Source: Marinifilum sp.
GTDB lineage: Bacteria; UBA9089; CG2-30-40-21
Length of the DNA: 46,457 bases
Direction: 5' to 3'
Assembly (NCBI GenBank): GCA_020717845.1
Contig: DYDG01000007.1
Span: forward strand, 1 to 46,457
Shown piece after piece: positions 2,859 through 38,483 of the stretch; position 1 is the first letter of the stretch, and each line of letters opens with the position of its first letter. Below the pieces are notes generated by a model, which saw only the letters and a list, made by a program, of their open reading frames with translations, searched no databases and was not told the DNA's origin. The position numbers were made by a program, and so were the translations under genes.

Positions 2859-3137
2859 CTGCTAAATCGCAAGTTATGCCAGTGTTGAGTATATCTGCCT
2901 AATCTGATTGCTCAGATCAACATCTTCTATGTAATTATAAAGCTATATTTTACACAATGCCCAAAAAATGAAATATAAATATAACATACCACAAAACACA
3001 CCTTTTGTCAATAAATTTTTTCTGCACAAAATATTGTGAGGCTGTTTATTACTATTGACTGATTACCTCTAAACTGGAAAGATTTCGACCTGAGCAATTA
3101 GGGTAATTTGCTACAGGTGGAAAGTATCCGATACATG

Positions 3138-3305
3138 TCCCGTAGGGACAATATATTGGTAGAAATAGATATGACACAAGCATAAATGCCGTAGGCATGA
3201 TATATTAAAATTCAATCGGCTTGAAATTATGTCGTTCCTATGGAACTTTTAATTTGTTTACGGTTATTTGCTACCAATATTATGTTCCTAACGGAACTTA
3301 GGAAA
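3138..3305. repeat. Cluster of short palindromic repeats (TGTCCCGTAGGGACA / ATGCCGTAGGCAT / GTTCCTATGGAAC / GTTCCTAACGGAAC units)
   Basis: Read directly: 'atgtcccgtagggacaatatattggtag', 'aatgccgtaggcatgatatatt', 'gttcctatggaac', and inverted 'ctaccaatattatgttcctaacggaac'. Confidence 0.75.
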
Positions 3306-3378
3306 AAGATGTGGGTAAGGGTAAGCTTAGCAAAGGGGGTCAGGGGGTTATATTTCCCTCCATTTCTTCTCACACATT

Positions 3379-3561
3379 CTAATTGTTCAGGTGGAAAATT
3401 ATTTTTTTACTTATCGATATTTCTCCTGAATATGTCCCAGCCTCAACTGTTACTGTGCCATTTTCAGGGCAAGCATCAATTCCCTGTTGAATTGTTGGAT
3501 AATCTGCAGGCACGCGAATCTCGCTTGCCTCAATACTTCGCCCTGTTATGTTATACAGCAA
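3379..3561 (-). pseudogene. Right-handed beta-helix / pectate-lyase-like N-terminal fragment
   Basis: EIRVPADYPTIQQGIDACPENGTVTVEAGTYSGEISI matches the well-known 'VPADYPTIQAAIDAA..GDTVLVAPGTY' motif; only about 60 aa remain. Confidence 0.6.
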
Positions 3562-3641
3562 AAAAGGTTGTCAATAATACCAAAACCATCTTTATCCATC
3601 TTGTCTTCATATGAAAATACCTTCTAAATATAATTGACTGC

Positions 3642-5333
3642 TTATCTCCAGAGATAAACAATATCTTTATTCTTAATAGTGCTTCCCTTAGGTAGGAAAA
3701 ACGGCAAAAAGCTATCACGGGTAATATTTACTGCAACCAACTCATATTCATTAGATAATCTTTTATCTATTAATAATTCTCGATCCCCAGGAAGTACTTG
3801 AGAAATCCACTGATAATACTCCTGAATTTTTTGAATACTGATTGGACAGGGTAATAATTCAGCAGCACCAACGATAATTATATCCGGCTTTTTAGAAAAC
3901 ACATAATTGGCATCAAATTTCATATGTCCAACAAGCCCTTTTCCCCCTTTTTCAACCCTTTGACGAGCAATATGTTTATCATTCAATCCCAACATATCTA
4001 TTGTATGGAAGCCTGTATAATATGGAATTATCCCTGCTGGATTGATAGCCATCTTTGTTGAAGACGGAAACACCTTAGCAAACCATTCTCCAGTTTTAAT
4101 ATTAGCTGCATCTCCTTTATTATACTTTGGCACTAATTCTTTTGCTTGAGCTCCCTTAGGACAAGCAGTAAAATTAAAATACAGCAGATAGCCTAAAATA
4201 ATTGCTACAAGTATTGGAGAAAATATCTTCCAACTATTTAAAAATCTTTCAATTATCTTTTCGATATGGATAATTCCCTCTCCTATTAATAAACAAAACA
4301 AGGATAATATTGGCACAAAAAATCTAAAGCATGGGAAACAATCTCCGCCTACTAAAAAAATATAAACACTAAATACTACAATTAAACTTGTAAAATAAGT
4401 AAACCATATTTTCCTATAACAAAAGACACCTAATATTAAAAGAAGAACCAACCCTATCCAACCAAAGTTTGTTGAGAAAAAATTAATTGCATAGTCAAAT
4501 CCAGTTGTATATTGAGCTGCTCCAGGAATAACCTTAGCATAAAAGGTATTCGGCAATAACTCTCCATAATACCACAACTTAAAAACAAGATATGGAACAA
4601 GAATAACAGCAGCCGTAATAAAAAATACCAGAATATCCTTATAATTTACCTTCTTAACAATCCATAACCCCAGAAGATAGATAAAACTAATCAGTAGAAA
4701 AAGAAAACCCTCAGGTCGTGTAAGAGTAGATAGAGCAAAGAAAAAAGAGGATAACATAAAGTTAGATTGTCTGAAATAAAAATATACTCCACAAATTACA
4801 AGAAAACTAAAAAGATGAGTTTCTAACCCTCCTGTAGCCCATAAGGTATAAGAAGGATTAAATGCCAGCAGAATCACAGGAATGAGGTTGTAAATTGGAT
4901 GAGGAAATATAGCTTGAGCAATTCTAAAACTTACAATTATAGTTCCCAATGCAAAGATAATTCCTAAAATAACAGAGGCCTGCGGCATATAACCTTTAAA
5001 GCCACTCAACATTAAAACCCACAAAAAATTAGTATAGCCTTCAACATATTCTCCTATATTAAATACTATCCCATTCCCCTGGATAAAATTTTTTGCATAT
5101 CTAAATGAAATGTATGCATCTTCTAATGGAGGATTAAAATTAAGATAAAAGATATGAAATAATAGAGACAACAATCCTATTAGAAGTCCTATATAGGTAA
5201 CATAAGGAGATATAACCATAGATTGAGATTGTTGCCGAGAAGGTTTATCTGCTTTTTTTTTCTTAGCCATAACGTTTTTCCCTTTATAACCCTTTTTTAA
5301 TACTTCTGATATTTTTGCATGAAATTCTACCAA
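3642..5333 (-). CDS. Polytopic membrane protein, glycosyltransferase/arabinofuranosyltransferase-like
   Basis: 563 aa; 'EDAYISFRYAKNFIQGNGIVFNIGEYVEGYTNFLWVL' motif; multiple TM segments. MAKKKKADK may be the true start. Confidence 0.7.
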   Translation of the reverse strand: MVEFHAKISEVLKKGYKGKNVMAKKKKADKPSRQQSQSMVISPYVTYIGLLIGLLSLLFHIFYLNFNPPLEDAYISFRYAKNFIQGNGIVFNIGEYVEGYTNFLWVLMLSGFKGYMPQASVILGIIFALGTIIVSFRIAQAIFPHPIYNLIPVILLAFNPSYTLWATGGLETHLFSFLVICGVYFYFRQSNFMLSSFFFALSTLTRPEGFLFLLISFIYLLGLWIVKKVNYKDILVFFITAAVILVPYLVFKLWYYGELLPNTFYAKVIPGAAQYTTGFDYAINFFSTNFGWIGLVLLLILGVFCYRKIWFTYFTSLIVVFSVYIFLVGGDCFPCFRFFVPILSLFCLLIGEGIIHIEKIIERFLNSWKIFSPILVAIILGYLLYFNFTACPKGAQAKELVPKYNKGDAANIKTGEWFAKVFPSSTKMAINPAGIIPYYTGFHTIDMLGLNDKHIARQRVEKGGKGLVGHMKFDANYVFSKKPDIIIVGAAELLPCPISIQKIQEYYQWISQVLPGDRELLIDKRLSNEYELVAVNITRDSFLPFFLPKGSTIKNKDIVYLWR

Positions 5334-5867: not shown

Positions 5868-8800
5868 TTATCTTACAACCCCAAGTTTTCCTCTTTTCCC
5901 ACCTGTTATTGTATAGATATAAATACCTGAGGCAATGCTTTTCTTTGAAACATCCCATTTTTGAGGGCACTCTGTTACCTCTATTTCATCTATAAGCTCT
6001 CCGGCAATGTTGTAAATCTTGATCTTTGAACCATTGGTTACTTTGTCAAAGTAGATGTATTGCCCTCCCCCTTTTTCCCATGGGTTTGGATAGGCATAGG
6101 CTTTGTCATTATCGGTTATTGTTGATGTCCCGCCTCTAACAGTAAAGCTTCCACTTTCTCTGCTTGCAATATGATTTATATGCTCTTGTTCGTTATAGCT
6201 ATATATTATAGGAGACTCTATTATTATTTTAGTTGATTCACTACAGGGAGAAAAAGTCTCTGTTGTATAGGTCGCATAGACCATTCCTTCATTATCTGTG
6301 AATCCAAATTCAGGGGAAATACTGCTTGTCTGCCTCTGCTTTTTCTTCATTTCTTCAAATGGTCTTTCGTCAATTGTTACTCCTTCTTCTTCTTCTTCTT
6401 CTTCTTCTTCTTCTTCTTCTTTTAAACTAAATTGTGTATATACATTTGGCCGTGGATTATTCCATTCATCTAATAATTGAGCCTTTATCCTGATGGAATC
6501 ACCCGGAGCAACAAATGTTTCTTCTTGAGAAGGCTCTATCTCAAAATGCAGACGATATACCTCAAAAGCATCTACCTGTTTTTCTTCGGCTACAGCAAGG
6601 GTAACAGAGCCAGGATGAAATCCCATGGGAGAAGATACACAATCATGTCCATATTCTGGATGTTCTCCAACTCCTGCTAAGATGAGATAAGATTCTGGAG
6701 GTATATTTTCTAATCTATAGGGTGTTTGTGCAGCCACTGTTGGGTCTATATGAATTCTTGTGAAGAAAACACCATCACATTCCTCTGTTTCAGTCTCTCT
6801 TACATCTGTTATCAGCCATTCCCATTCATAAGGCAGGAGAACTACAGTCAATGTCCCTGAGTAATTACCTCGATATGTTATTGTCCCTTGTAAGCTTGCC
6901 GATGTATTTTCAAGATACATGGCCAAGAATTCATCCCAGTTTGTATCTTTTGAAAAATCAATAATATCTTCTGTATAAGTTCCATATTCTTCATCATAAA
7001 AGCTTTCTGGAAAGTAAATGCTCAATCCGTGCATTTCCCTTTTTGAGAAGTTAGCGATGATAGAAGTATCAAGCTCAGAAATGAGGTTTTCCACAGCTAA
7101 AGAGAGTGCATCTGAAATTGTGCCTGTTAATGTAGCAAAATGGTATAGATCAATATAAGATTCAGCAAAGGCTTTATCTGTCTCCTTCCATGCTGCCCTT
7201 ATTTTATCCCAATCTCCTGTATCTGTAAGAGAACCAATATAGTTAGAGAGTGCCCCTGCTAATTTATCTGTATTAGAAAGAGAGACTGCAGAAAGTGTAG
7301 GGCTTTCACCCATAAAAGAATCCTTTTCCCAATAATCTTTATACCTTCCTACTATTGAACCTCCAAGCTCAGCAGCACTCATGGTTGGTGTTCCATTCAG
7401 GTCTTTTAGAATGAGTTCATAAGGCCAGCCAGGAGCCAGTTCTATCTCCTGCGAGGCAACCATTACGTCTGCATAATCCTTTAGCTGATAGGCATTTTCA
7501 ATCATTCCCATCAAGCAGGCATCAAAGCCTATTAAATTTATCCTGGGCAATTGGGATAAGGCGTCCTGAACCTCACTCATATAAAGGCAATCTCCAGCAG
7601 ATGTATCATCCCAGCAGACAGCCTTTTTTCTTATCTTTTCAAGGCAAGCCTTATCTCTCCAACCATTACCATGATTCATAAACACAAAAGAATAGTTTTC
7701 TGCGGGATAATTCTTCATTGCCCAGGAGGCAAAATCTACTACTGTCTCAGGGTCTCCCATATTCACCTCATCAAGGCTTAAAACCTCTGGTGAGGTTATC
7801 AGCAGATCATTGTCATCCTTAAGCAAGTAATAATAAGATGAATTTTCATGTCCTTCTATTCCATCCATTAAGACAACAACATTTACCTTTTCTGACGAGC
7901 CAACACGCTCTATTATGTTTATATCATCCAGTGCATATTCCTCAAGGTTATTATCGCCATCAAGATAGACTATAAATGTCCAGGATTTTGTGCCATGAGA
8001 TATGGGTACTGCCTCTGAGTAGTTAGAATATACAGGTGGAGATTTTCTTTCTTTTTCCTTTCCATCTGAGATAATTGCATAGACAGAATAGGTGCCTTGT
8101 GGGATATAGGAGATTTTCCAGGTATAGCTGCCACGTGTATCATGTTCAGAGATACCTCCTGCAATCAAAATACCATCATAGTTTTCTTGATCTGTATCGT
8201 AATATAGGCTTATTTTTGCTTCGTCATCTAAATCTTCAGCGTCCCACATAAGGACAAGGCTTTCAGTTCCTTCTTCTGTGGGGGGTAAGAGAGTAATTGC
8301 AGGTGCTGTATTTGACCCAATCCAGATATCCTCTGGCATACACCAATTTCCTGTCTGTGTCCCTGTTAGTGCCCTTATCCTATAGTAATAAAACCCTGTT
8401 TCCTGTCTGCCAGGGATAAGACAAGATGTTCCTGGGGTTACAACTATGGAACTCCATGTAAATGTTTGAGTTGCCTCCTCAAGATCGTAATATTCTGCTT
8501 CATTTACAGGGGACCAGCTTACAGTAAAAGTTTCAAAAGGCGATACTGCATAAAGCGGACAAATGCTGGGAACATTAGGGGTTGTTTTGAAAAGCCTGGA
8601 AAGAAAATCAGGCCAGGTTGTATCGTTGCAAAAGTCGACAGGCTTGAGAAGGACATAGTCAGTATACTCCTCATCCTCTCTACTTTTTGGGAAGTATATA
8701 TTTAAGCCATAGAAATTGGAGCAATCTGAGCTTGCATAATTGGCAATTATTGTCCTATCTAAATTTTCCTTTAAAGATTCAGCTTTTTGAGTTATACTTT

Positions 8801-9776
8801 GGTCTAACAAACTGGCAAAATGATATAAATCAGCATAAACCCCACTTGCCTCTGTTCTATTTCTTGCCTCTTGAATATCTTCCCAATAATACTCTAAGGA
8901 ATCAGCAAACTCTGAGATTAATTCTGGTGCTAAATCATCAAGACAGGTTAAATCAATTGCCGATTGTGTTATTCCGCTTTCACCAGGATAAGCCTGTCCA
9001 TATCTATCTACAATTACCGTACCAAGCTCATTAACACCCATGGTTGGAGTTGCTGCTAAATCCCTCAAAATGACATCATAAGGCCAGCCATCCCCAGGTT
9101 CTTCCTCCTGTGAGAATACTGTAACACTGCCTAAATCCCTGAGCTGATATGCAACCTCAATCATTCCCATCAGGCAGGCATCAAAGCCTATTAGATCGAG
9201 CCTTTTACCTGTTGCCTCAAGTGCCTCTTTTACCTCACTCATGTAGAGGCAGTCATCTCCTGATGTGTCATCCCAACAAACAGCCTTGTTATGACCGTCT
9301 ATTTTAACACTTCTTTTTTGCAAACTTCTTGTTTTTTCCCGCCAGCCGCCGCCATGGTTCCAGAAAATAAGGCTATATTTTTTAGCAGGATAATTGGCAA
9401 TTGCCCAATTTGCAAAATTGGTTAATGTCTGAGTGGCAGCCATATTTACCTCTCGACCTCCCTTCCCATCCCCCCAGTTAGAAATAGCCTGAGATTCATA
9501 TGGTTCCATACCTTTGGCAATCAGAAATCTATGACATTTTGTCCAGTTTCCATGCGATGTGTCAAAGCCTTTAACTCTATCCATCTGAACAACAATGTTT
9601 ATATCCTCATCTGAACCAACAGAAGCCATCTCTAAAAAATCGTCAATGGCATCTTCCTCTAAATTATTATCTCCATCGAGATATACCATAAAGGTATGTT
9701 CTTTTTCCTCGGCATAAGCCTCTATCCCCATACCTAAAGCTATTCCCAAAATGAGCAAAAATCTTAAGACTTGCAT
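5868..9776 (-). CDS. Secreted tandem clostripain-family (peptidase C11) protein with C-terminal T9SS/FlgD-like sorting domain
   Basis: Signal peptide; two copies of 'FMVYLDGDNNLEE...NHGGGWR/NHGNGWR...LIGFDACLMGMIE' with His and Cys intact in both; C-terminal 'AYPNPWEKGG...IYNIAGELIDEIE...ASGIYIYTITGG'. Confidence 0.85.
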   Translation of the reverse strand: MQVLRFLLILGIALGMGIEAYAEEKEHTFMVYLDGDNNLEEDAIDDFLEMASVGSDEDINIVVQMDRVKGFDTSHGNWTKCHRFLIAKGMEPYESQAISNWGDGKGGREVNMAATQTLTNFANWAIANYPAKKYSLIFWNHGGGWREKTRSLQKRSVKIDGHNKAVCWDDTSGDDCLYMSEVKEALEATGKRLDLIGFDACLMGMIEVAYQLRDLGSVTVFSQEEEPGDGWPYDVILRDLAATPTMGVNELGTVIVDRYGQAYPGESGITQSAIDLTCLDDLAPELISEFADSLEYYWEDIQEARNRTEASGVYADLYHFASLLDQSITQKAESLKENLDRTIIANYASSDCSNFYGLNIYFPKSREDEEYTDYVLLKPVDFCNDTTWPDFLSRLFKTTPNVPSICPLYAVSPFETFTVSWSPVNEAEYYDLEEATQTFTWSSIVVTPGTSCLIPGRQETGFYYYRIRALTGTQTGNWCMPEDIWIGSNTAPAITLLPPTEEGTESLVLMWDAEDLDDEAKISLYYDTDQENYDGILIAGGISEHDTRGSYTWKISYIPQGTYSVYAIISDGKEKERKSPPVYSNYSEAVPISHGTKSWTFIVYLDGDNNLEEYALDDINIIERVGSSEKVNVVVLMDGIEGHENSSYYYLLKDDNDLLITSPEVLSLDEVNMGDPETVVDFASWAMKNYPAENYSFVFMNHGNGWRDKACLEKIRKKAVCWDDTSAGDCLYMSEVQDALSQLPRINLIGFDACLMGMIENAYQLKDYADVMVASQEIELAPGWPYELILKDLNGTPTMSAAELGGSIVGRYKDYWEKDSFMGESPTLSAVSLSNTDKLAGALSNYIGSLTDTGDWDKIRAAWKETDKAFAESYIDLYHFATLTGTISDALSLAVENLISELDTSIIANFSKREMHGLSIYFPESFYDEEYGTYTEDIIDFSKDTNWDEFLAMYLENTSASLQGTITYRGNYSGTLTVVLLPYEWEWLITDVRETETEECDGVFFTRIHIDPTVAAQTPYRLENIPPESYLILAGVGEHPEYGHDCVSSPMGFHPGSVTLAVAEEKQVDAFEVYRLHFEIEPSQEETFVAPGDSIRIKAQLLDEWNNPRPNVYTQFSLKEEEEEEEEEEEEGVTIDERPFEEMKKKQRQTSSISPEFGFTDNEGMVYATYTTETFSPCSESTKIIIESPIIYSYNEQEHINHIASRESGSFTVRGGTSTITDNDKAYAYPNPWEKGGGQYIYFDKVTNGSKIKIYNIAGELIDEIEVTECPQKWDVSKKSIASGIYIYTITGGKRGKLGVVR
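6384..6419. repeat. (TTC)12 trinucleotide microsatellite encoding 12 Glu inside the clostripain CDS
   Basis: Counted directly in the sequence. Confidence 0.95.
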
Positions 9777-9797
9777 TTTCTGTGATTCCTTTCACTC

Positions 9798-10031
9798 GAT
9801 GTTCAAGTTTTTTGTGGCTTATAGGAACCACCAGAATAGAGCGGTAAAATGCCAGCCGATATTCTTGTAGCTACAACCTGCCAGAGGCAGGTGGGAGTCC
9901 CACTGCAGAAGGTCTGCTGCCAGTGCTACCTCCTTGTGGTCGCTTCTTATTCCCATGCGTGATTGAAAGATAGCAGGGACAAGCCCCGCAGCTACAAGCA
10001 CTATTGCTTGGTGGCAAAAAACTTGAACATC
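9798..10031. mobile_element. MITE-like element with 17-bp perfect terminal inverted repeats
   Basis: GATGTTCAAGTTTTTTG (9798-9814) and CAAAAAACTTGAACATC (10015-10031); interior carries the dispersed 'CCTGCCAGAGGCAGGTGGGAGTCCCACTGC' repeat. Confidence 0.65.
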
Positions 10032-10034
10032 AAG

Positions 10035-11363
10035 TTAAAAGCTCTTCTCCACCTCTTCTATGATCTTTTCAATTGGGATACCATCGTGATCGCCAAAGTA
10101 AGCATAGCCGTTTTCTGAAGCCGCTGGCTTCTTCTCTCCTTTTTCTACCCTCTCTTCCCTTTCTTCCTTTGCCTTTTTCGCTGATTCTGCCTCAGCCTTT
10201 GATTCCTTTAAGGTTTCTATATCAATTACCTCGGCAATACCAATCTTTTTTTCCTCTACAGGAGATGGTTGGGCGATAACTTTGGCAGTTATAGGCAAGG
10301 GAATACTTTCCTCGTGAGAGATCAATTCCCATGGAATTTCTGACTCTTTTCTTGTTTCAGGTTTTTCCACAGGTTGTTCAACAGACAACAAGGGTGATAC
10401 AGGGAATTCATTAAATACATCCATGCCAAATGATGACGAAACATCCACTGTTCCGACCATACCACTGCTCTTAGAATAGGTAAACAAACCTCTGATACCG
10501 CCCATATCGATATACCCATGTATACCCTTTCCTTTTGTATAGGTAAATTCACCCTTAGCATCACCCATTTCTGCAACACCAATGATGCCTTTTTCCTTTG
10601 TATAGGTAAAATCACTCTTTATTTCATCCATTTCAATTACGCCCATAATACCCCTATCCTTTGAATAGGTAAATTCACCCTTTACGCCATCAAGGTCTAT
10701 TATCCCAACAATCCCCTTATCCTTCAAATAAATAAACTCTCCGGTAGCTTCTCCAAGAGCAACGGTTCCCTCAATGCCTTTTTGAAAATTAAACCTAAAA
10801 TTCCCTTTGGCATCTCCAAGGTCTATCGTTCCAAATATCCCCCTATCCTTCCAATAGGTAAAACTTCCCTCAATGCCATCAAGATTTAATATTCCCATAA
10901 TACCCTTTGCCAGAGTATAGGAAAATGGAGCGGTTATGTTTCGCAAGGCCACATTTCCGATAATTCCTTTGTGCTTAGAATAGGTAAATTCACCAAGAGC
11001 ATCTCCCATTTTGATTGTCCCGAATATACCCCTTGCTTTGGTATAAGTAAATTCACCATCAGCATCTCCCATCTTTACCATACCAACAAGACCTTTTTCC
11101 TTTGTATAAACAAACTCTGCTGGCATCTTGCCCAGCATTACTGTTCCAAAGACACCCTTTTCTTTTGAATAAGTAAACTCACCATCAGCCTCCCCCAATT
11201 TCACTGTGCCAACAATACCCTTGTCTCGCGTATAGACAAACTCACCCTGAGCCTCTCCAAGCTCTACCATCCCCACAATGCCCTTGTCCTTGGAAAAGAC
11301 AAAACTGCTCTTGACACCACCCATATCAACACTTCCAGAAAGACCTTGATTACTCATTCTCAT
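10035..11363 (-). CDS. Repeat protein: 14 tandem 21-aa repeats plus charged C-terminal tail
   Basis: Repeats of the form G-x-F-x-Y-[ST]-K-x-[KR]-G-I-x-G-x-[IV]-x-[LM]-G-[DE]-A-x; no signal peptide visible. Confidence 0.85.
   Translation of the reverse strand: MRMSNQGLSGSVDMGGVKSSFVFSKDKGIVGMVELGEAQGEFVYTRDKGIVGTVKLGEADGEFTYSKEKGVFGTVMLGKMPAEFVYTKEKGLVGMVKMGDADGEFTYTKARGIFGTIKMGDALGEFTYSKHKGIIGNVALRNITAPFSYTLAKGIMGILNLDGIEGSFTYWKDRGIFGTIDLGDAKGNFRFNFQKGIEGTVALGEATGEFIYLKDKGIVGIIDLDGVKGEFTYSKDRGIMGVIEMDEIKSDFTYTKEKGIIGVAEMGDAKGEFTYTKGKGIHGYIDMGGIRGLFTYSKSSGMVGTVDVSSSFGMDVFNEFPVSPLLSVEQPVEKPETRKESEIPWELISHEESIPLPITAKVIAQPSPVEEKKIGIAEVIDIETLKESKAEAESAKKAKEEREERVEKGEKKPAASENGYAYFGDHDGIPIEKIIEEVEKSF
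10428..11309 (-). repeat. 63-bp (21-aa) x14 in-frame tandem repeat region
   Basis: Aligned by eye from SSFVFSKDKGIVGMVELGEAQ to GLFTYSKSSGMVGTVDVSSSF with no indels. Confidence 0.85.
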
Positions 11364-22751: not shown

Positions 22752-25700
22752 CTATTTAGACAGCAATTTCTTAATCTTTGCCGCCTTATCTTGATTAATA
22801 TCGCCTACAATCTTTAGCACCTTATTTACAGACTTATCCCCTTGCACCTGATAGAGCTTATAGAGTATTCTGGCTGCCTGTTTGGGACTAAGGCTTGGAG
22901 ATACCAGAAGTATGGAGAGCTCTTCCAGTCCCTTGGGATCAACCACCAGAGATTCAGCCAGTCTTTCCATACCGGCAGACTCCATTTCTCCAAATCTACC
23001 CATAGCCTCTTCTTCACCCATTATCCATGACTCAGACTCTTTTTTCAATAGAGGCTTTATCTCTTCCTTTATTTCAGGCTTTGTCAGCTCTGGCATCTCT
23101 ATCTTTGGTTGAGGAACAACCACTGCTGGCTTTTCTATAGGCTTGCTTGATAGCTCCAGGCTCAAGTTATCCACTCGACTGGACATATCCCAGCCATCGC
23201 TTTTTACCCGAACACAGGTTATCTTAGCTGGTTTTGGAGCAAGATCCATGAGATTAGGTGTGGTATAGCTTATCCATGTATTCTTTTTAACCATTTCCTC
23301 CATCTCAGGAGACTGCAGTTTACCCTTTATCAAGAATCCATGTCTGAAAAGATGAGGCTTGCCTGAAATATCCATATATTCTATCTCTAAGCAAACAGGA
23401 TATATCCCATCTTTCTGCCTGTCTTTAGAAAAGGAGTCGAAAAGCACCTTTATCTCTCCATGCAACATACAAAGGTTATACCTGATAACACTAATATCCA
23501 GCATCTGGAACACGCTTGCTCCGCCAATGGCAGAGTTTGAATCCTGTCTGTTTATCTCAAGGCTATGAGGATGCTGGCTATCATCCTTTACTACCTCAAC
23601 CTTTATCTTCCCTGACCCTTGCGAGGCAGACTGCCAACATTCCATCCCCTGTTCAAAACCGCCATCCATAAGCTTGATATAGATATTTGCCTTTGGTGCA
23701 ACAAACACTTGAGGCTTTTTGTCCGTTTTCTCCTGGACAACAACCACTGCTGGCTTATGCACCTCAGCTACCTCAGCTGGCAGCATACCCAGTTGAAGCT
23801 CAACATTATCAACCCTGCTCACAAAATCCCAGCCTCTGGCAGTAATCTTCGCCTCTGTTATTTTTACTGGTCTTGGGGAAAGCTGTGTCAGGTTTGGAGA
23901 GACATAGTCCACCCATACCCCCTTCTTTACCTGTTCACCAATATCTGGATAATTCAGCTTGCCGCTTACAAGGAAACCATGCTTGAACAGATATGGTTTA
24001 CCATCTGTCCCCGTATATTTTAATTCAAGACAGACAGGATACCCTTCACCAGCCTTGCCATCACCAGACATACTTGCATTATCTATCTTTATATCAGCTT
24101 TCAGAATGATTTGAGTATATCGATAGACATCAATATTCAACAGTTGCAACACCCCTGCCTCGCCCATATTAGACTGCGCCTTTTGTCGTTTCATCTCAAG
24201 TGTTGTTGGATGAGATGAGCTATCATTGGCAATACCAACATAAATATTTCCAACCCCTTCCTTCCTTGTAGTCCATGCATTCATTCCATCATCAAACCCA
24301 CCATTGGTTAACATAGTATGGACCGTTGGCAATGGAACAACTATCTGTGGAACTACTACAGGTGCCAGAGGTGCTACCTCCACAGGTGCTACTGCTGGCT
24401 TTGGTGCCTCGGGTGCTGGAACTGCTGGTGCTACAACCACAGGTGACAGAGGTGCTACCTTCACAGGTGGTGTTGCTGGCTTTGGCATCTCTGGTGCTGG
24501 AACTGCTAGTGCTACCTCCACAGGTGGTACCACAGGCTTTGGTGGCTCTGGTGTCGGAATTGCTGGTGCTGCAACCACAGGTGGTGCCACAGGCTTTGGC
24601 TTCGCAACCTCGACAGCTGCTGGCTTTGGCATCTCTGGTGCTGGAATTGCTGGTGCTGCAACCACAGGTAGTGCCACAGGCTTTGGCTTCGCAACCTCAA
24701 TAGCCGCAGGCTTTGGCAATCCTGGCAATGCCGCAGATTCTTCAGGCTTTTTAATGGTAATCTCTACCCTTCTATTTCGTGCCTTACCTTCAGGTGTTTT
24801 ATTTGAAGCAACTGGCTTTGCTTCTCCATAACCAATGGCTGTCAGATTAGCAGCTGGCACGCCTTCCCTTTCAACCAGAAATGTCATAACACCCTCTGCC
24901 CTTGCTTGAGATAATCCTTTATTATCTTTATATTTCTTTTGCGTAACAGGTCCAAGCGGAACATTATCTGTATGTCCTTCTATCATAACCTTGCAATCAG
25001 GATATGTCTTAAGGATATTTGCCACCTTTGTCAGGACAGGAGAGGCTGTGGGTTGAACCACATGACTGCCGGTAACAAAGTTAACCGCTGCTTGAGTCAT
25101 CTCTATCTTTATTGTCCCCTTATCCTCTTTAACGGTAATCCCCTTCTCTTCTTTTATCTCAGCCAATGCCTTTAATGGTGCTGGTTTTTCCGGCATAGGC
25201 GGTGCAACTATCTCTATTGGCAGCTCTGGGACCGGAGCAAGCTTAGCTGCTGCAACCGGTGGAGCCAATTCTTTAGTAGTTTTTTCTACAGCTGCTGGTG
25301 GCAATGCCCTGGTCAGAAGAAAATCTACCCTTGCCACTGTTTGTTCCGGACCAAAGGATACTGTCTGTCTCCTCTTTTCATACCCTTCAAACGAAGAAAT
25401 CAGGGTATATTCTATCCCTTTATTCAGATTATCCATAGAATACTTACCCATCACCCCTGATCGTATCTGTCTTAAGGAACTCTGCCCCTTAAGCAGATCA
25501 AGGGTTGTTCCGGAAAGCCCCTCACCTGTTCCTGAATCCTTTACCAATCCATAAACAAATGGATTCTCCGGAATAAGCAGCATCTTGAGATAGCTTGATT
25601 TTACTGATGAAACATCTACCTTTTGAGATGCTATCTTAAATCCGTGTGCCTTAGCCGCAATAAGATGTTCTCCTGTAGAAAGCTCCTTGAGCATATATTG

Positions 25701-27356
25701 CTCTCCTTCTTCCTGAGCAGCAATACCTATTCCCTGTTCCTCAAATCTAACCCCTTTAATAGAAATTCCTGTATCCTCAACCTTTCCGTCCATTCCGTCC
25801 ATTGGATGTCCAATATGAACCTCAGCAACAATTGCCCCCTGCCAGGAGCTTGTCCAATGTTCATTTGGTACAGATGAAATGCTTCGGCTATGCAGAGATG
25901 TTCTATTTGCTGGTTTTGCCTTATCGTCCAATGTAAGAAAGAGTGGTGTGCCAAAGCAACGGTCAAGGAACATCTGATAGGAGAAAAAATCACCTGTCTG
26001 TCCAGGTTCTTGCTTGCAATTTTTATCAGCAATGGCTATCTTTATTTCCTGAGGCTCTATCCCCAGACGATTTGGGGCATCAGCCGGGTTCATGGTTACT
26101 TCCAATTCTTTTGAACCTATAGGAAGCTCAATCTTAAACGAGGTTGGCACTAATGGTTGTCCCAGCCATGGCTTTACCTTGAATTCCTTATCATTTAGAT
26201 AAACATCACCTATTGCACTTACAGATGTTTTTTCCTGTTCAGAGCATTGATTATCCCAGCCAATATTCAGGGAGGCAAGCTGTTTTTTAAGCTTATCAGA
26301 CATTCCTGCCCCTTCCCGAATAGAGCCGGCTGCAAGGGCAACTATTTCAAATGGATCCTGAGATCCTGCCTCTTTAGCCGAGACTATCTGAAAAAAGACG
26401 CTCTTCCTGCCCTCAGCCTGAGAAAAGACAACCTTTATCGGAATATTTTTAGCTAAAATATAGACATCACCATATCCTGGACCAATAAGATTGGATAATT
26501 CTGATGATTTTTCAGAAGAAATAACCTGAGATGGGGTAAAGAGAAACTCCATGGTATCGGTTCCATGTCTTTTTACCAGAAGGCTGCCCTTTATTGAACT
26601 AAAAGAAAGCTCCTCCTGCAACGCCTCTTCTATCCTTACCGGAACAGAAGATATGGCAAATCTCATCAAATGAGATATTTGAGCCTTTTGGGTTAATTCA
26701 GTAAAACTGGCATCACCATTTGGATCATGAAGAATCAATAAGGGTAGGAACGGAATTGTTGTATAAAACCATTGATATTCAGACGAACATTTCATGGTAA
26801 GGTAGGTTATCTCTTTTGCTGTTTTCTCTTCCACAGCCATTCTTGAACAAACTGTAAGCCTGTAGCGAGCCTCTGGTTCTTGCTGGAAGATAGTGGTGGA
26901 TAAAAAATTTCTTTTATCCACACTCTTTGCTCTACAGGAGATAGTTTCCCTGTCAGCACTTACAAAATACCATTTATCTGAATGTGGAGCTGTTTCTTTT
27001 TCAACTATTAAAGAGACGATATATGATTCATCAAACCCACAGCTATTTTTTGCCTGACAAACCAGCCCAAACTTGAACTCATTTTGCTTTTCAGGCATCA
27101 TAAAATAAGATTCTTTTGCCAGGAATGGCTTAGTTAATGTCCAGACAGGCATCTCTAAAAGTCCTTTCCATTCAGAGATAATCCCTCCTATCATTACACC
27201 TGGCGGGTCCAGGGTGTTGTCTAAGCTGACAACCGCCAGAGGGGCTCCCTTTGCCAGAGGGGCTCCAGCATCTTCTCCATAGCCAATATTTGCCAAACAA
27301 AGAAAGAAAACAACAAATAACAACTTTTCTAATTTCATCATAATACGCCTCCTCAT
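22752..27356 (-). CDS. Large OmpA-domain surface protein with Pro-rich linker and two tandem beta-sandwich (CBM/galactose-binding-like) modules
   Basis: Signal peptide; OmpA-like 'PDCKVMIEGHTDNVPLGP...SQARAEGVMTFLVEREGVPAANLTAIGYGEAKPVASNKTPEGKARNRRVEITI'; PKPVAxPVVAAPAIPAPE repeats; two related ~170-aa modules (NGGFDDGMNAW... / DGGFEQGMECW...). Confidence 0.85.
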   Translation of the reverse strand: MRRRIMMKLEKLLFVVFFLCLANIGYGEDAGAPLAKGAPLAVVSLDNTLDPPGVMIGGIISEWKGLLEMPVWTLTKPFLAKESYFMMPEKQNEFKFGLVCQAKNSCGFDESYIVSLIVEKETAPHSDKWYFVSADRETISCRAKSVDKRNFLSTTIFQQEPEARYRLTVCSRMAVEEKTAKEITYLTMKCSSEYQWFYTTIPFLPLLILHDPNGDASFTELTQKAQISHLMRFAISSVPVRIEEALQEELSFSSIKGSLLVKRHGTDTMEFLFTPSQVISSEKSSELSNLIGPGYGDVYILAKNIPIKVVFSQAEGRKSVFFQIVSAKEAGSQDPFEIVALAAGSIREGAGMSDKLKKQLASLNIGWDNQCSEQEKTSVSAIGDVYLNDKEFKVKPWLGQPLVPTSFKIELPIGSKELEVTMNPADAPNRLGIEPQEIKIAIADKNCKQEPGQTGDFFSYQMFLDRCFGTPLFLTLDDKAKPANRTSLHSRSISSVPNEHWTSSWQGAIVAEVHIGHPMDGMDGKVEDTGISIKGVRFEEQGIGIAAQEEGEQYMLKELSTGEHLIAAKAHGFKIASQKVDVSSVKSSYLKMLLIPENPFVYGLVKDSGTGEGLSGTTLDLLKGQSSLRQIRSGVMGKYSMDNLNKGIEYTLISSFEGYEKRRQTVSFGPEQTVARVDFLLTRALPPAAVEKTTKELAPPVAAAKLAPVPELPIEIVAPPMPEKPAPLKALAEIKEEKGITVKEDKGTIKIEMTQAAVNFVTGSHVVQPTASPVLTKVANILKTYPDCKVMIEGHTDNVPLGPVTQKKYKDNKGLSQARAEGVMTFLVEREGVPAANLTAIGYGEAKPVASNKTPEGKARNRRVEITIKKPEESAALPGLPKPAAIEVAKPKPVALPVVAAPAIPAPEMPKPAAVEVAKPKPVAPPVVAAPAIPTPEPPKPVVPPVEVALAVPAPEMPKPATPPVKVAPLSPVVVAPAVPAPEAPKPAVAPVEVAPLAPVVVPQIVVPLPTVHTMLTNGGFDDGMNAWTTRKEGVGNIYVGIANDSSSHPTTLEMKRQKAQSNMGEAGVLQLLNIDVYRYTQIILKADIKIDNASMSGDGKAGEGYPVCLELKYTGTDGKPYLFKHGFLVSGKLNYPDIGEQVKKGVWVDYVSPNLTQLSPRPVKITEAKITARGWDFVSRVDNVELQLGMLPAEVAEVHKPAVVVVQEKTDKKPQVFVAPKANIYIKLMDGGFEQGMECWQSASQGSGKIKVEVVKDDSQHPHSLEINRQDSNSAIGGASVFQMLDISVIRYNLCMLHGEIKVLFDSFSKDRQKDGIYPVCLEIEYMDISGKPHLFRHGFLIKGKLQSPEMEEMVKKNTWISYTTPNLMDLAPKPAKITCVRVKSDGWDMSSRVDNLSLELSSKPIEKPAVVVPQPKIEMPELTKPEIKEEIKPLLKKESESWIMGEEEAMGRFGEMESAGMERLAESLVVDPKGLEELSILLVSPSLSPKQAARILYKLYQVQGDKSVNKVLKIVGDINQDKAAKIKKLLSK
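24330..24720 (-). repeat. Degenerate tandem repeats encoding a Pro/Ala/Val-rich linker
   Basis: Recurring 'KPKPVAPPVVAAPAIPxPEMPKPA' units. Confidence 0.75.
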
Positions 27357-33484: not shown

Positions 33485-34381
33485 TCATATCTTCTCTGTT
33501 ACCTCTTCACCAAATATCCCAGCAGGCTTAAAAAGAAGCACGAGTATAAGGATAACAAAAGCGATAATATCCTTATTTTCAGATGATATATACCCTGCTG
33601 CCAGTGTTTCTACTATGCCCAGGATAAACCCGCCTGCCATAGCACCCTTAATATTGCCAATTCCGCCCAGCACAGCAGCGGTAAAAGCCTTTATGCCTGG
33701 CAAAAAGCCCATGTTATACTTTATGCTGCCATAATACAACCCGTTCAATACACCAGCTATCCCGCCCAATCCTCCACCAATCAAAAAAACCAATGCAATT
33801 ATTGTATTAACATTAATACCCATCAATTGGGCAACAACATGATTTTCAGCAACTGCCCGCATTGCCTTACCCATCTTAGTTTTGGAAATGAAAATCGTAA
33901 GGATAATCATGATCAGAATGGATAGACCAAAGATAAAAATCTGTAACGAGCTTATCTGCACACCAAATAAATGGAATTGCATTATAGGCAGCTTTTCTGG
34001 ATAGGTTTTAGACTGAGCACCAACAGCTATCATAATCAGGTTTTGCAAGAATATGGAAACACCAATAGCACTTATCAGGGGTGATAGCCGACAGGCATGC
34101 CGCAGCGGCTTATAGGCAATCTTTTCTATTATAACAGCCAACAGTCCTGCTCCAAGCATGGACAGAACAAAACAAAGCAAGAAATATAGCAGAAAGAATT
34201 GGGGAGCAAATACAGGCATGGAAAAAAGCACCAGGAAACCAATATAAGCACCAACCATAAAAATCTCGCTGTGAGCGAAATTTATCATGAGCAATATGCC
34301 GTAAACCATAGTATAACCTAATGCAAACAAGGCATAAATACTTCCAAGGGTTAAACCATTGACTAATTGTTCAATAAACAT
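33485..34381 (-). CDS. livH: Branched-chain amino-acid ABC transporter permease
   Basis: 'NGLTLGSIYALFALGYTMVYGILLMINFAHSEIFMVGAY', 'FTAAVLGGIGNIKGAMAGGF'. Confidence 0.93.
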   Translation of the reverse strand: MFIEQLVNGLTLGSIYALFALGYTMVYGILLMINFAHSEIFMVGAYIGFLVLFSMPVFAPQFFLLYFLLCFVLSMLGAGLLAVIIEKIAYKPLRHACRLSPLISAIGVSIFLQNLIMIAVGAQSKTYPEKLPIMQFHLFGVQISSLQIFIFGLSILIMIILTIFISKTKMGKAMRAVAENHVVAQLMGINVNTIIALVFLIGGGLGGIAGVLNGLYYGSIKYNMGFLPGIKAFTAAVLGGIGNIKGAMAGGFILGIVETLAAGYISSENKDIIAFVILILVLLFKPAGIFGEEVTEKI

Positions 34382-34567
34382 AGTTAGATTGTATTCCTAT
34401 AAGATAAACATTCAGCATTCAGGCAGAATATTGCCTAACATTTCTCGTGCCCTGTCAAGATTGAATTCGTAGGAACAAGATATAGGGACAGGGTACCAGA
34501 GGTACTACCTTCTTTCCTTGTCCCTGTCCGAAGCCTGATTGGTTGTTCAAGCAATGGACTACGAACC

Positions 34568-36331
34568 TCAAAATCTTATTCCCAATAATCCCCCATCTTC
34601 AGTTGCATCTGTCAAGGTATTCCGAATATATTGGTCAAATTTGAAATCAGGACTAAAATCTCTTGTTGGTATGGCATCTGAGTTAATTGTACAAATATAT
34701 TGAAAGCCAAGTCTTTCCGCCTCTTTCGCGGCCAATTCTATAGCTAATGCCTTTTGCCTTTCATCTACATCAGCAAAGATAATGCTATCGTGAATAAGAG
34801 GCATTAACGATTTGGCACGTTCTGACCAAACCTGTGCCAGCATCAGGTCGTAACAGAAAATTTTCATATTCCCAACACCATGACTTCCAGACCTCTCAAT
34901 CTCCACCTTGAATTTGAAACCTGTTTTCTTTATGTTAATCGACAGGGTTCCTGGAACCTCATAAAGGGCTTCAGAGTTAGAGTTGAACCTTAAAGTCACA
35001 TCTTTCAGTTGCGATTCCCTCTCCTTCATGTCTATAGTAGCTTGTTGTAACAGTAGTTCTTGTTCGATTGCAACAGCACTTTTACCCTGCTCGAATTTTT
35101 TCAGGTTCTCTAATCTCAGGATTACATCCTTAAGTTCCGATACACTTTTTTGATGATTTGTCTGGAATTGTGTGTATTCTTCCAGGGCACCATGTTTCTG
35201 CAAAACCTGCATCAGCTCCAGACGGGTAGATGAAAGAGTCTGCACCTGCTGTTCTCTTTTCGCGATTTCAATTTTTATGCGTTTTATCTCGTATGATAAG
35301 AAGTCCTTCCTGTTTTTAACGACTTGTTTGTGGAATGACATTACATCTTCGATTCGTTTCGTGATAGAATCCGGTAGAATTATTCCCGCCTCCTGATAAA
35401 TACGGGTTACTGAATCAGGTTTAGCATCAGTTTCCTCGGTCAAACTTGCCTCGTAATTCTCAAGAAGTCTTTTTTCACATACATTTTGGTTTACTAAATC
35501 GTGAATTTTATTCGTTAACTCGTTGGCCTCTTTTTCTATCTGATTGTATTGTGGATGGACATTAAAATTGCTCAAGTCCTCTTTTTCTTGTGCTACTTGA
35601 GCTTCCAATCTGATTCTTTTAGCTTCCAGTTCACCTATGGAACCAATAAGATTCGTAAGAATTCCTGATTTCGCTTCTTCTTTTAGCTGATCAAGAACCT
35701 TCATTCTATCCTTTAGAACCTGCCATTTTGAGGCGTATTCCCATCCTAAGCCGAGAAGAAACGCATTGTTCACCTGTTTATCCCATTCTTTTTGATCCTT
35801 ATATTGTTGGAATGGATTTAGAAAAGCTCCTTGCTGTCCATTCCGACGAATAAAATAAGAAATAAGACTTCTGAATGTAGGCGCGTATTTGAAGTCATCA
35901 TAGACGGGTCGAAGACCGAACATTAGAACTCCCAGAACCTTATTCCAGTCACGTGATGAGATTATCTGTTTTCCAGTCTTTTCGTCAATATCTGGTTTTA
36001 CTGACCAATTGGAACAATCACCACTGATAATAATCTTAGTTTGGTTGGTTGTATTGCGAGACACTGAGTACTTTTCCCCAGCCAGGTCCAATTCCAGGAA
36101 GAATGTCCAATTATTCATTTGGGGCTTGCTTAGTGTTTCTCCCTTTTGACCGCCCAAGCAGAAGTGGATTATCTCCAGAAGAGTTGATTTACCAAGTCCG
36201 TTTCGCGAGTCCTTTTTAGTCGACTCTTTTGTTCTTTCAGCGAGCATGACATTGTAGCCGGGTTTGAATTCCACAGTTTTAAAGGATGTCCTATCGCTTT
36301 TTACAGAGTAGAGCATTATTGTCTCCTCCAT
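34568..36331 (-). CDS. DUF2326-like SMC/ABC-type ATPase (ABC three-component system ATPase)
   Basis: 'FKPGYNVMLAERTKESTKKDSRNGLGKSTLLEIIHFCLGG' (Walker A), coiled-coil middle, C-terminal 'KIFCYDLMLAQVWSERAKSLMPLIHDSIIFADVDERQKALAIELA'. Confidence 0.8.
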   Translation of the reverse strand: MEETIMLYSVKSDRTSFKTVEFKPGYNVMLAERTKESTKKDSRNGLGKSTLLEIIHFCLGGQKGETLSKPQMNNWTFFLELDLAGEKYSVSRNTTNQTKIIISGDCSNWSVKPDIDEKTGKQIISSRDWNKVLGVLMFGLRPVYDDFKYAPTFRSLISYFIRRNGQQGAFLNPFQQYKDQKEWDKQVNNAFLLGLGWEYASKWQVLKDRMKVLDQLKEEAKSGILTNLIGSIGELEAKRIRLEAQVAQEKEDLSNFNVHPQYNQIEKEANELTNKIHDLVNQNVCEKRLLENYEASLTEETDAKPDSVTRIYQEAGIILPDSITKRIEDVMSFHKQVVKNRKDFLSYEIKRIKIEIAKREQQVQTLSSTRLELMQVLQKHGALEEYTQFQTNHQKSVSELKDVILRLENLKKFEQGKSAVAIEQELLLQQATIDMKERESQLKDVTLRFNSNSEALYEVPGTLSINIKKTGFKFKVEIERSGSHGVGNMKIFCYDLMLAQVWSERAKSLMPLIHDSIIFADVDERQKALAIELAAKEAERLGFQYICTINSDAIPTRDFSPDFKFDQYIRNTLTDATEDGGLLGIRF

Positions 36332-36540
36332 ATCAGTCCATCCTTAAAATCAATGATGTTCATTATGAACAGGAGATCCAGACTCAGAGTGAAACGCTCG
36401 AATGTCCTTATTTCTGGCAGGTTTCGGGTCTTGTCCCATAACAGACTAACCGTTTTGGGCTCGTTAATATTCTTCAATAAAGCTGCACCGGCACTTAGTA
36501 GGGAATTTGAGAGTTTCAGATGTTTTGTAGGAAGAATCAT
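36316..36540 (-). CDS. ABC three-component system middle component (MC6-like) small protein
   Basis: MILPTKHLKLSNSLLSAGAALLKNINEPKTVSLLWDKTRNLPEIRTFERFTLSLDLLFIMNIIDFKDGLIWRR; overlaps both neighbours (16 bp with the ATPase gene, 4 bp with the HNH gene). Confidence 0.75.
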   Translation of the reverse strand: MILPTKHLKLSNSLLSAGAALLKNINEPKTVSLLWDKTRNLPEIRTFERFTLSLDLLFIMNIIDFKDGLIWRRQ

Positions 36541-37286
36541 TTTTCGAACACCTCACATTTTTCGAATAGATAGACCAGCACCGCCAATCCCGCTGCCCTC
36601 TCAAGGAAGATAGAACTATTTCTCGATGCGAATTCCATAAGACCGTCGAACAATTCATCACCCGTGAGATGTATTTCGTTCTTCAATCTTTCATATTCGG
36701 TCACAAAACCTATTTTGATTCGATTCCCAAAATCAATGTCCGGGATTCTGTCAAGGAAACTGCTGACTAATCCTACCTGCACCATGCCCATAATGATTAG
36801 TCTTTCAGTTACTGTTGACAGCTTGTTCCTTTGTATTTTATCCTTAGGTGGAATGACTTTGTAAGAATCACTCGTGGCAGGTTGTTTTGAAACTAAGTAC
36901 TGTGTTACTACATTGAGTTCTGCAAAGGTAGTATTTATTACCTCATTTGCTGTAGATTCGCGGATGTATTTTTCGTGTTGCCTTTTAATTTCGAGGAGCT
37001 TTTCAACGGTGTATGTATTCGGCTGGTCGTCAACCATTTTATGGTGGTCACAGCATAAAATTATAAGATTTTGGTGGTTATTTCGCTCAGCAGAAGTCAT
37101 GTTTGGATCATATCGTGCTGATGTTGGCTTTTCACCTTTGATGTGTGCTCTCTCGCCGATAATAGATTTCTGGTCGTTACCAATACTATCGATAATAAGT
37201 TCCTTGCGGCACTCAGGAATAGCACAACGATTACCGCATTTCCAATCAATGATCTTCTTGTCCTTATCTGAAATGCCGCTATTCAT
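36537..37286 (-). CDS. HNH endonuclease fused to ABC-3C C-terminal (CTD-like) domain
   Basis: HNH: 'CGNRCAIPECRKEL...GERAHIKGEKPTSARYD...ERNNHQNLIILCCDHHKMVDDQP'; C-terminal 'TGDELFDGLMEFASRNSSIFLERAAGLAVLVYLFEKCEVFEK'. Confidence 0.8.
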   Translation of the reverse strand: MNSGISDKDKKIIDWKCGNRCAIPECRKELIIDSIGNDQKSIIGERAHIKGEKPTSARYDPNMTSAERNNHQNLIILCCDHHKMVDDQPNTYTVEKLLEIKRQHEKYIRESTANEVINTTFAELNVVTQYLVSKQPATSDSYKVIPPKDKIQRNKLSTVTERLIIMGMVQVGLVSSFLDRIPDIDFGNRIKIGFVTEYERLKNEIHLTGDELFDGLMEFASRNSSIFLERAAGLAVLVYLFEKCEVFEK

Positions 37287-37355
37287 TTTCTTACCTCAAC
37301 CCTTTTCTTACAATCACCTGTGCAATATTGTCTAACGGAATCCTTACTCTAATAA

Positions 37356-38483
37356 CTACTCACAATAAACAAATTTACCATCCTTAATCTTGTAGATGCT
37401 GATAGTTTTATTCAATGTATCGCCTTTTTCATCAAACGCAGTTTCACCCAGGATACCATTATATTTAATGCTTGATATATAATCAATTATCGGAGATGTT
37501 TCCTTATTTGTTTTTTCAATTGCCTCGACAAGCATGCAGGTTGCCTCATAGGTATACGGGTCATAAGGCTGCATATCTACTCCAGGATATTTTGCCTTAA
37601 ATTTATCCATGAACGCCTTTGCTTTTGGTAATTTATCCGGCGGCATGCCTATCATTGAGGCATAATCACCTTCTGTGGCACTACCACCAATCTTGATATA
37701 TTCTGGGCTAAATATTCCATCACCGCCAACTACAGGCACCTGTAACCCTAATTCCTTTGCCTGTTTGGTAATTAATCCGCATTCACTATACATCCCTCCA
37801 AAATAGAGCAGGTCAGGCTTTTCATTTTTTATCCGTGTCAGGAGTGCCCTGAAATCTTTATCACCACTATTAATCCCATCAAAACTCAATATCTTTCCCT
37901 GTCGTGTTTCTCGTGCCTCAAACTGTTTTTTGAATTCCTCAGCCAGACCCTGACCATAAGCAGTTTTATCGTGAATTACTGCTACTGTGATAATTTTTAG
38001 GTTATCAACACAATAATTTGCCCCAAAACTTCCCTGGACATCGTCGGTTGTGCAGACACGAAACACATTTTTTAACCCTTGCAAGGTTAATTTAGGATTA
38101 GTTGATGCAGGGGTTATCATCAATAGATTGTGTTTGGCATAGACTTGACTTGCAGGTATTGAACAACCACTGTTCAGATGACCAATCACCCCAATTATTT
38201 TTGCATCAGAAATAACCTGATTAGCTACATTTGCAGCCTCTTTTGGATCGCCGCGGTCATCAAATGCGGCTAATTCAAGCTTTATATCTTGAAATTTGCC
38301 AGAGGCATTAGCCTCTTCAATAGCCATTTCAGCCCCTCGTTTCATCCCCTGCCCCATGGCGGCAATATCTCCGGTCAGAGGACAAACGAGAGCTATCTTG
38401 ACCACCTGTTCACCTTCTGGTGCTTTAGCGCACCCAACAAAACCTATTAAAATTCCAAAAAGTGCTAACAAAATTCTGAACAT
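37356..38483 (-). CDS. livK: Branched-chain amino-acid ABC transporter substrate-binding lipoprotein
   Basis: Lipobox 'GFVGC'; 'VKIALVCPLTGDIAAMGQGMKRGAEMAIEEAN', 'VIGHLNSGCSIPASQVYAKHNLLMITPAST'. Confidence 0.93.
   Translation of the reverse strand: MFRILLALFGILIGFVGCAKAPEGEQVVKIALVCPLTGDIAAMGQGMKRGAEMAIEEANASGKFQDIKLELAAFDDRGDPKEAANVANQVISDAKIIGVIGHLNSGCSIPASQVYAKHNLLMITPASTNPKLTLQGLKNVFRVCTTDDVQGSFGANYCVDNLKIITVAVIHDKTAYGQGLAEEFKKQFEARETRQGKILSFDGINSGDKDFRALLTRIKNEKPDLLYFGGMYSECGLITKQAKELGLQVPVVGGDGIFSPEYIKIGGSATEGDYASMIGMPPDKLPKAKAFMDKFKAKYPGVDMQPYDPYTYEATCMLVEAIEKTNKETSPIIDYISSIKYNGILGETAFDEKGDTLNKTISIYKIKDGKFVYCE

Follow-up and report, generated by a model that had tools for sequence, protein, structure and literature searches.

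The closest described relatives of the locus presented here are the ABC three-component (ABC-3C) systems, which were reportedly introduced by Krishnan et al. in 2020. A 2023 review assigns these systems to the Lamassu superfamily, for which HNH is one of the effector domains listed (PMC10586767). Reviews (including PMC10586767) describe DNA ends or hairpins as what Lamassu senses and state that its LmuA effector is freed and tetramerizes on activation. PADLOC-DB further contains a phage defence candidate, PDC-M68 (models PDLC04772 and PDLC04774). PDC systems are mostly unvalidated (PMC12988326), and our literature search found no paper on PDC-M68 itself and no experimental test of it.

We analyzed a stretch of 46,457 nucleotides from a Marinifilum sp. 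genome (hereafter, the window), in which a three-gene cassette lies between the transporter genes livK and livH. Relative to the ABC-3C branch defined by DUF2326, MC6 and CTD10, the cassette presents no difference in kind: the order effector-middle component-ATPase, the three families and the swappable N-terminus of the effector are all the same, and only the CTD10 score of the effector falls slightly below the Pfam cut-off. The gene pair of PDC-M68 is also present, with effector and ATPase matched over essentially their full length, but the cassette differs by an additional, unmatched MC6 gene and by its site, which is in a transporter operon instead of an immune one. Lamassu type II/DdmABC (LmuA-LmuC-LmuB) presents the same three-part layout, a Rad50-like ATPase fold and a C-terminal docking domain on the effector. 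However, its sequence similarity to the cassette is weak, its middle component and C-terminal domain belong to other families, and its effector is of the Cap4 rather than the HNH type.

A three-gene cassette between livK and livH

The three open reading frames described in the original prediction are present, all on the minus strand, and the livK and livH genes named as their neighbors were confirmed on both sides. The features of the locus are as follows:

37356..38483, minus strand: livK-like substrate-binding protein, host-operon gene upstream of the cassette
37287..37355, minus strand: livK-effector spacer, 69 bp
36537..37286, minus strand: HNH effector gene, 249 aa; N-terminal HNH domain assigned to the Cap5 type and C-terminal CTD10
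36316..36540, minus strand: MC6 middle component gene, 74 aa; PF20293 match
34568..36331 as first called (587 aa), or 34568..36316 with the likely start (582 aa), minus strand: DUF2326 SMC/Rad50-like ABC ATPase gene; PF10088, PDC-M68B
36323..36329, minus strand: Shine-Dalgarno-like GGAGGAG read from the sequence, 6 nt ahead of the ATG at 36316
36182..36202, minus strand: Walker A motif of the ATPase (NGLGKST), from sequence alignment
34784..34792, minus strand: putative Walker B-like HDS of the ATPase, from the strand order of the predicted structure
34382..34567, minus strand: ATPase-livH spacer, 186 bp; mild RNA structure (z −2.4)
33485..34381, minus strand: livH-like permease, host-operon gene downstream of the cassette

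The stop codon of the effector gene overlaps the start of the middle component gene by four bases (ATGA), as had been proposed, and the same 4-nt overlap was observed in 15 of the 15 homologous cassettes measured. A second overlap, of 16 bp between the middle component and ATPase genes, does appear in the list of open reading frames, but translation of the ATPase probably does not begin at the ATG at 36331. In homologous ATPases, the first residue is the one aligned to M6 and the length is mostly 582 aa; a GGAGGAG lies upstream of the ATG at 36316; and starting there yields an ATPase of 582 aa with a 1-nt overlap with the stop codon of the middle component (TAATG). For these reasons, the true start is probably located at 36316 and the 16-bp overlap likely represents a start-site artefact.

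The ABC-3C organization suggested in the original prediction was supported by family searches, including the similarity anticipated in the 74-aa protein and in the C-terminus of the HNH protein. The middle component matched MC6 (PF20293; E=1.1e-13; 51.4 bits for a Pfam cut-off of 27.2) and the ATPase matched DUF2326 (PF10088; E=1.7e-38; 131.9 bits for a cut-off of 28.7). The C-terminus of the effector matched CTD10 over positions 5-134 of 134 with a score slightly below the cut-off (E=1.6e-5; 25.9 bits against 28.1), and homologs in two other genomes scored above it (32.4 bits in G005 and 45.9 bits in G002). A match of the effector to HNH_2 (E=5e-4) was just below the curated Pfam cut-off. In PADLOC, the effector corresponds to PDC-M68A (E=2e-78; 261.7 bits; positions 1-251 of 253) and the ATPase to PDC-M68B (E=3.9e-201; 667.6 bits; positions 1-581 of 581), whereas the ATPase match to LmuB (PDLC03859; E=6e-10; 36.9 bits) was weak and far below that to PDC-M68B. 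The MC6 gene had no match among the PADLOC models, and NCBIfam yielded no family with a meaningful score for any of the three proteins. A homologous plasmid locus is annotated as "HNH endonuclease", "ABC-three component system middle component 6" and "DUF2326 domain-containing protein". Since PDC-M68A and PDC-M68B are matched over their full length and the plasmid homolog bears these annotations, the cassette is, on the strength of its profile matches, a member of the catalogued candidate defence system PDC-M68, in the DUF2326/MC6/CTD10 branch of ABC-3C. The HNH effector had been put forward as a variant worth testing. It is not new, because HNH already figures in the published list of Lamassu/ABC-3C effectors (PMC10586767) and because PADLOC models this effector/ATPase pair.

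A segment of the ATPase arm (window 35138-35449, about residues 295-397) also matched CTD10, with 35.5 bits, which is above the cut-off and higher than the score of the effector tail. Homology between the effector tail and the ATPase arm, as this common match might suggest, is not supported (profile-profile probability of 0.2%). Because the profile comparison reveals no homology of the two segments, the Pfam CTD10 model may mix two things.

Effector, ATPase and proposed mode of action

The effector consists of an HNH domain (about residues 1-116) followed by a CTD10 docking domain (about residues 120-248). The HNH triad H48, N73 and H82 and the zinc ligands C21, C26 and C78 are invariant across 17 sequences. 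Profile searches of the PDB retrieved Cap5 HNH structures (7rwm, 7rwk, 8fm1 and 9dif), CBASS HNH effectors in PADLOC also matched the HNH half, and the predicted structure of the effector (mean pLDDT 85.9) matched Cap5 in the same half. By profile and by predicted fold, this domain is thus of the CBASS Cap5 type. HNH matches stop at about residue 115-120, the rest of the protein being CTD10. Unlike Cap5, in which HNH is combined with SAVED, the effector presents no SAVED domain, and no CD-NTase (cyclase) partner was found beside it, its neighbors being MC6 and DUF2326; an ATPase/MC switch would take the place of the cyclic nucleotide.

In the ATPase (587-aa numbering), the Walker A residues G47 and K48 are invariant in 25 sequences. 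In the putative Walker B-like HDS, which terminates a strand, D515 is invariant. The predicted structure suggests that a serine replaces the catalytic glutamate expected after D515. LmuB carries a glutamine at this position (PMC10586767). Both residues, the serine here and the glutamine of LmuB, would point to hydrolysis being slow and to the switch working one way. The zinc hook CPxCG is found in many, not all, Lamassu systems, whereas no CxxC is present anywhere in the 587-aa ATPase.

When the sequence profile of the ATPase was run against the PDB, nothing was found, and matches were obtained by fold search only. The predicted structure (mean pLDDT 86.9) was found by Foldseek to be closest to B. 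subtilis YydD (E=4e-28). LmuB chains came second only to YydD (E from 1e-15 to 2e-12), one of them from a PDB entry titled "nuclease sequestration state", and were followed by Rad50/SMC heads. Part of the effector model, in its C-terminal half, resembles B. subtilis YydB (probability 0.97; rmsd of 3.8 Å over 139 columns), with an E-value of only 0.5. The likeness to YydBCD was observed in the fold only. With the same ATPase fold and an MC6 protein in the genome, B. subtilis YydBCD constitutes a tractable laboratory model.

We consider it likely, with a probability of roughly 0.78, that the locus is a horizontally acquired immune cassette of the PDC-M68 type, that is, an ABC-3C member of the Lamassu superfamily in which a Lamassu-like sensor would hold and release an HNH DNase. 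By analogy with Lamassu, MC6 and the ATPase would hold the HNH nuclease until an encounter of the ATPase with abnormal DNA licensed it. Two SMC/Rad50-like DUF2326 ATPases would form an ATP-bound clamp on DNA, and MC6 would connect the effector, by way of its CTD10 tail, with this clamp, thereby keeping the HNH nuclease inactive. The trigger would be the encounter of the clamp with an abnormal structure in invader DNA, such as a DNA end, a hairpin or a stalled fork. The effector would then be released or re-assembled, the Cap5-like HNH domains would pair, and the paired HNH would cut DNA, leading to the destruction of the invader or of the infected cell. On this analogy, the mode of action is probably that of Lamassu, with an HNH DNase of the Cap5 type. 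Several points speak against an immune reading: a CTD10 match just below the cut-off, a weak sequence similarity to LmuB and the lack of a zinc-hook CxxC. The suggested mechanism can be compared with solved Lamassu complexes, with a similar sensor core joined to a Cap5-type HNH DNase, and the computational defence candidate PDC-M68 is now placed in a little-known lineage.

Gene order, effector exchange and distribution

Scanning genomes with the ATPase yielded 25 loci, and 6 of 98 genomes, including that of the window, presented matches. The three genes do co-occur elsewhere: the order effector-MC-ATPase was conserved across bacteria and archaea in all 24 loci with a full-length ATPase and readable upstream DNA. 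Pairwise divergences of the effector, the middle component and the ATPase are correlated (r=0.90-0.97; 0 of 2000 permutations), and ATPase divergence is somewhat more correlated with that of the effector C-terminal domain (r=0.95) than with that of the HNH domain (r=0.88). At the level of sequence divergence, this shows joint inheritance of the three proteins, not interaction as such. With full-length family matches, a conserved order and correlated divergence, the association of the three genes is beyond chance.

The MC/DUF2326 core is combined with different effectors. An HNH effector was found at 17 intact loci and at one frameshifted locus (L024). A restriction-like N-terminal domain replaces HNH in L006/L075 and L027, a call that was made by reading the sequence for L006 and L027, with a weak LmuA match in L075 only. 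Another N-terminal domain, associated with CTD12, was found in L008/L076. Three cyanobacterial loci (L020, 3174-6766; L019, 4398-7758; L022, 4390-7749) present a nuclease-less CTD10 protein behind a separate upstream gene, which encodes a caspase-domain protein in L020 and for which no identity was found in L019 and L022. These loci possibly represent a split-effector form of ABC-3C. In the frameshifted locus, from Magnetococcales, HNH is spread over several frames (4464-5247) next to an intact MC and ATPase, representing either a decayed effector or a sequencing error.

Several of these cassettes reside in or beside defence operons. A cassette lies between hsdS and hsdR (type I restriction-modification) in L009 and L010 and also in L087, a viral contig for which the neighbors were identified from their translations, and a cassette with an extra gene lies between the same two genes in L018. 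The cassette of L015 is directly ahead of hsdR, those of L011 and L027 adjoin hsdS or hsdR, and a DarT and a macro-domain gene lie just downstream of the cassette in L012. Relatives were found in 68 plasmid records, 30 of which are predicted to be conjugative, and at 14 loci of a viral collection; no relative of the ATPase was found in 50,697 phage records.

Occurrence on plasmids and viral contigs, scattering among phyla and joint inheritance of the effector with its partners would also be expected of a selfish module of the toxin-antitoxin kind, stabilizing itself or a mobile element, in which the HNH toxin is held by the ATPase and MC and the host gains little protection. The repeated embedding in restriction-modification operons and the DarT-macro neighbor point instead to defence, and Lamassu relatives have anti-phage and anti-plasmid activity, which renders a selfish module improbable. 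Still less probable is a role in DNA repair or end processing, as a complex similar to SbcCD/Mre11-Rad50 in which the HNH nuclease takes the place of Mre11. It would agree with the Rad50-like fold matches that come just behind YydD and Lamassu and with the MC6 match, above cut-off, in the chromosome of B. subtilis, the only control genome with such a match. However, the occurrence is patchy (of 19 genomes from the phylum, 5 contain MC6), the nuclease is swapped for unrelated effectors, and the cassettes reside in defence operons.

In the phylogenetic tree of the ATPase, the protein of the window belongs to a group of 13 that is well supported and includes Methanophagales, Methanoperedens, Nitrospirota, Omnitrophota and others, while the cassettes of its own genus branch outside this group and present 23-29% identity. 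Relatives of the ATPase at 70% identity are found in archaea, next to other gene neighbors. This tree topology fits horizontal transfer, with the qualification that several records are MAG contigs, some homologous loci being single short ones. A Heimdallarchaeota locus that is near-identical to a Methanophagales one may be mis-binned.

Placement in the liv operon and in other operons

The livK-livH gap is 2974 bp in the window and only 51-76 bp in one genome of the same genus (G002) and in three of the same order (G005, G006 and G007), where the two genes are adjacent. Because livK and livH are adjacent in these four relatives, the cassette is, judging from gene order, a lineage-specific insertion into the liv operon. 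Other cassettes are located elsewhere in the genus. In G002, one ABC-3C cassette (L075, contig C57, 3935-6812), whose effector is restriction-like with CTD10, lies between panC (2944-3921) and panB (6985-7782), which are adjacent in the genome of the window (G000) as well as in G001 and G003. The same genome contains a cassette with a CTD12 effector (L076, contig C74, 4704-7633), co-directional with its neighbors guaA (3049-4581) and secA (7793-10333), a gene pair that was not observed in the loci of relatives. The empty-site comparisons at livK-livH and panB-panC show that ABC-3C cassettes are inserted into housekeeping operons, away from classical defence islands. This bears on how defence genes are found and switched on. 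Another genome of the genus (L074; G001, contig C149, 1-520) presents non-livK DNA with a small open reading frame upstream of livH, where the contig ends; this may represent a second insertion in the livK-livH gap or a rearrangement.

Both spacers of the cassette were examined for a mobile-element signature and each was found to be single-copy in the genome. The best ungapped match between the two flanks is a weak, imperfect 13-bp direct repeat:

37324..37336, minus strand: upstream copy, GTTAGACAATATT
34427..34439, minus strand: downstream copy, GTTAGGCAATATT

The score of this repeat was matched or exceeded in 16 of 1000 shuffles, which is too weak to call a target duplication. Promoter-like matches in the cassette region were no more frequent than expected by chance, and no terminator-like site was found on the minus strand in the 186-bp spacer ahead of livH; both results are consistent with read-through without demonstrating it. 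The cassette, without an evident promoter of its own, is probably read through in the liv transcript.

The lack of such a terminator, the shared strand and the tight packing are also what a cassette serving the transporter operon would present, with a regulatory or nutrient-responsive role and a functional place between livK and livH. This role is highly improbable, since the two genes are adjacent without a cassette in four relatives, homologous cassettes occupy other sites, namely hsd and pan operons or the secA-guaA interval, and the 70%-identity relatives of the ATPase in archaea have other neighbors. With sister cassettes in unrelated operons, the liv placement suggests no evident functional link to transport. 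Equally remote is the possibility that foreign DNA was brought into the liv operon by misassembly of this draft genome (181 contigs), given that intact livK and livH flank the cassette in order on one 46-kb contig, that GC-content across the cassette is host-like (0.37-0.42) and that an independent, parallel insertion separates panB and panC in a genome of the same genus.

Within the preferred reading of an acquired immune cassette, the kind of system is known, and what is more unusual is its habit of settling inside other operons. This recurrent placement inside co-directional operons, observed at a handful of loci, is the most unusual aspect of the cassette. A tentative generalization, which we regard as possible but doubtful, is that DUF2326/MC6 ABC-3C cassettes are operon guests: promoterless and translationally coupled, they would settle repeatedly in gaps between co-directional genes (hsdS-hsdR, panB-panC and livK-livH) and rely on the host operon to be expressed. 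If true, immunity in the lineage of the window would be scattered through housekeeping operons and missed by searches for defence islands.

Two further observations concern the surroundings of the cassette. The spacer ahead of livH contains a GGGACA...TGTCCC hairpin stretch (window 34483-34532) that resembles stretches in G002 and G003 (L081 and L082; 78-79% identity), and this sequence is perhaps a dispersed repeat of the genus. Elsewhere in the window, positions 5871-9776 and 22755-27356 encode very large predicted exported proteins of 1302 and 1534 aa, respectively.
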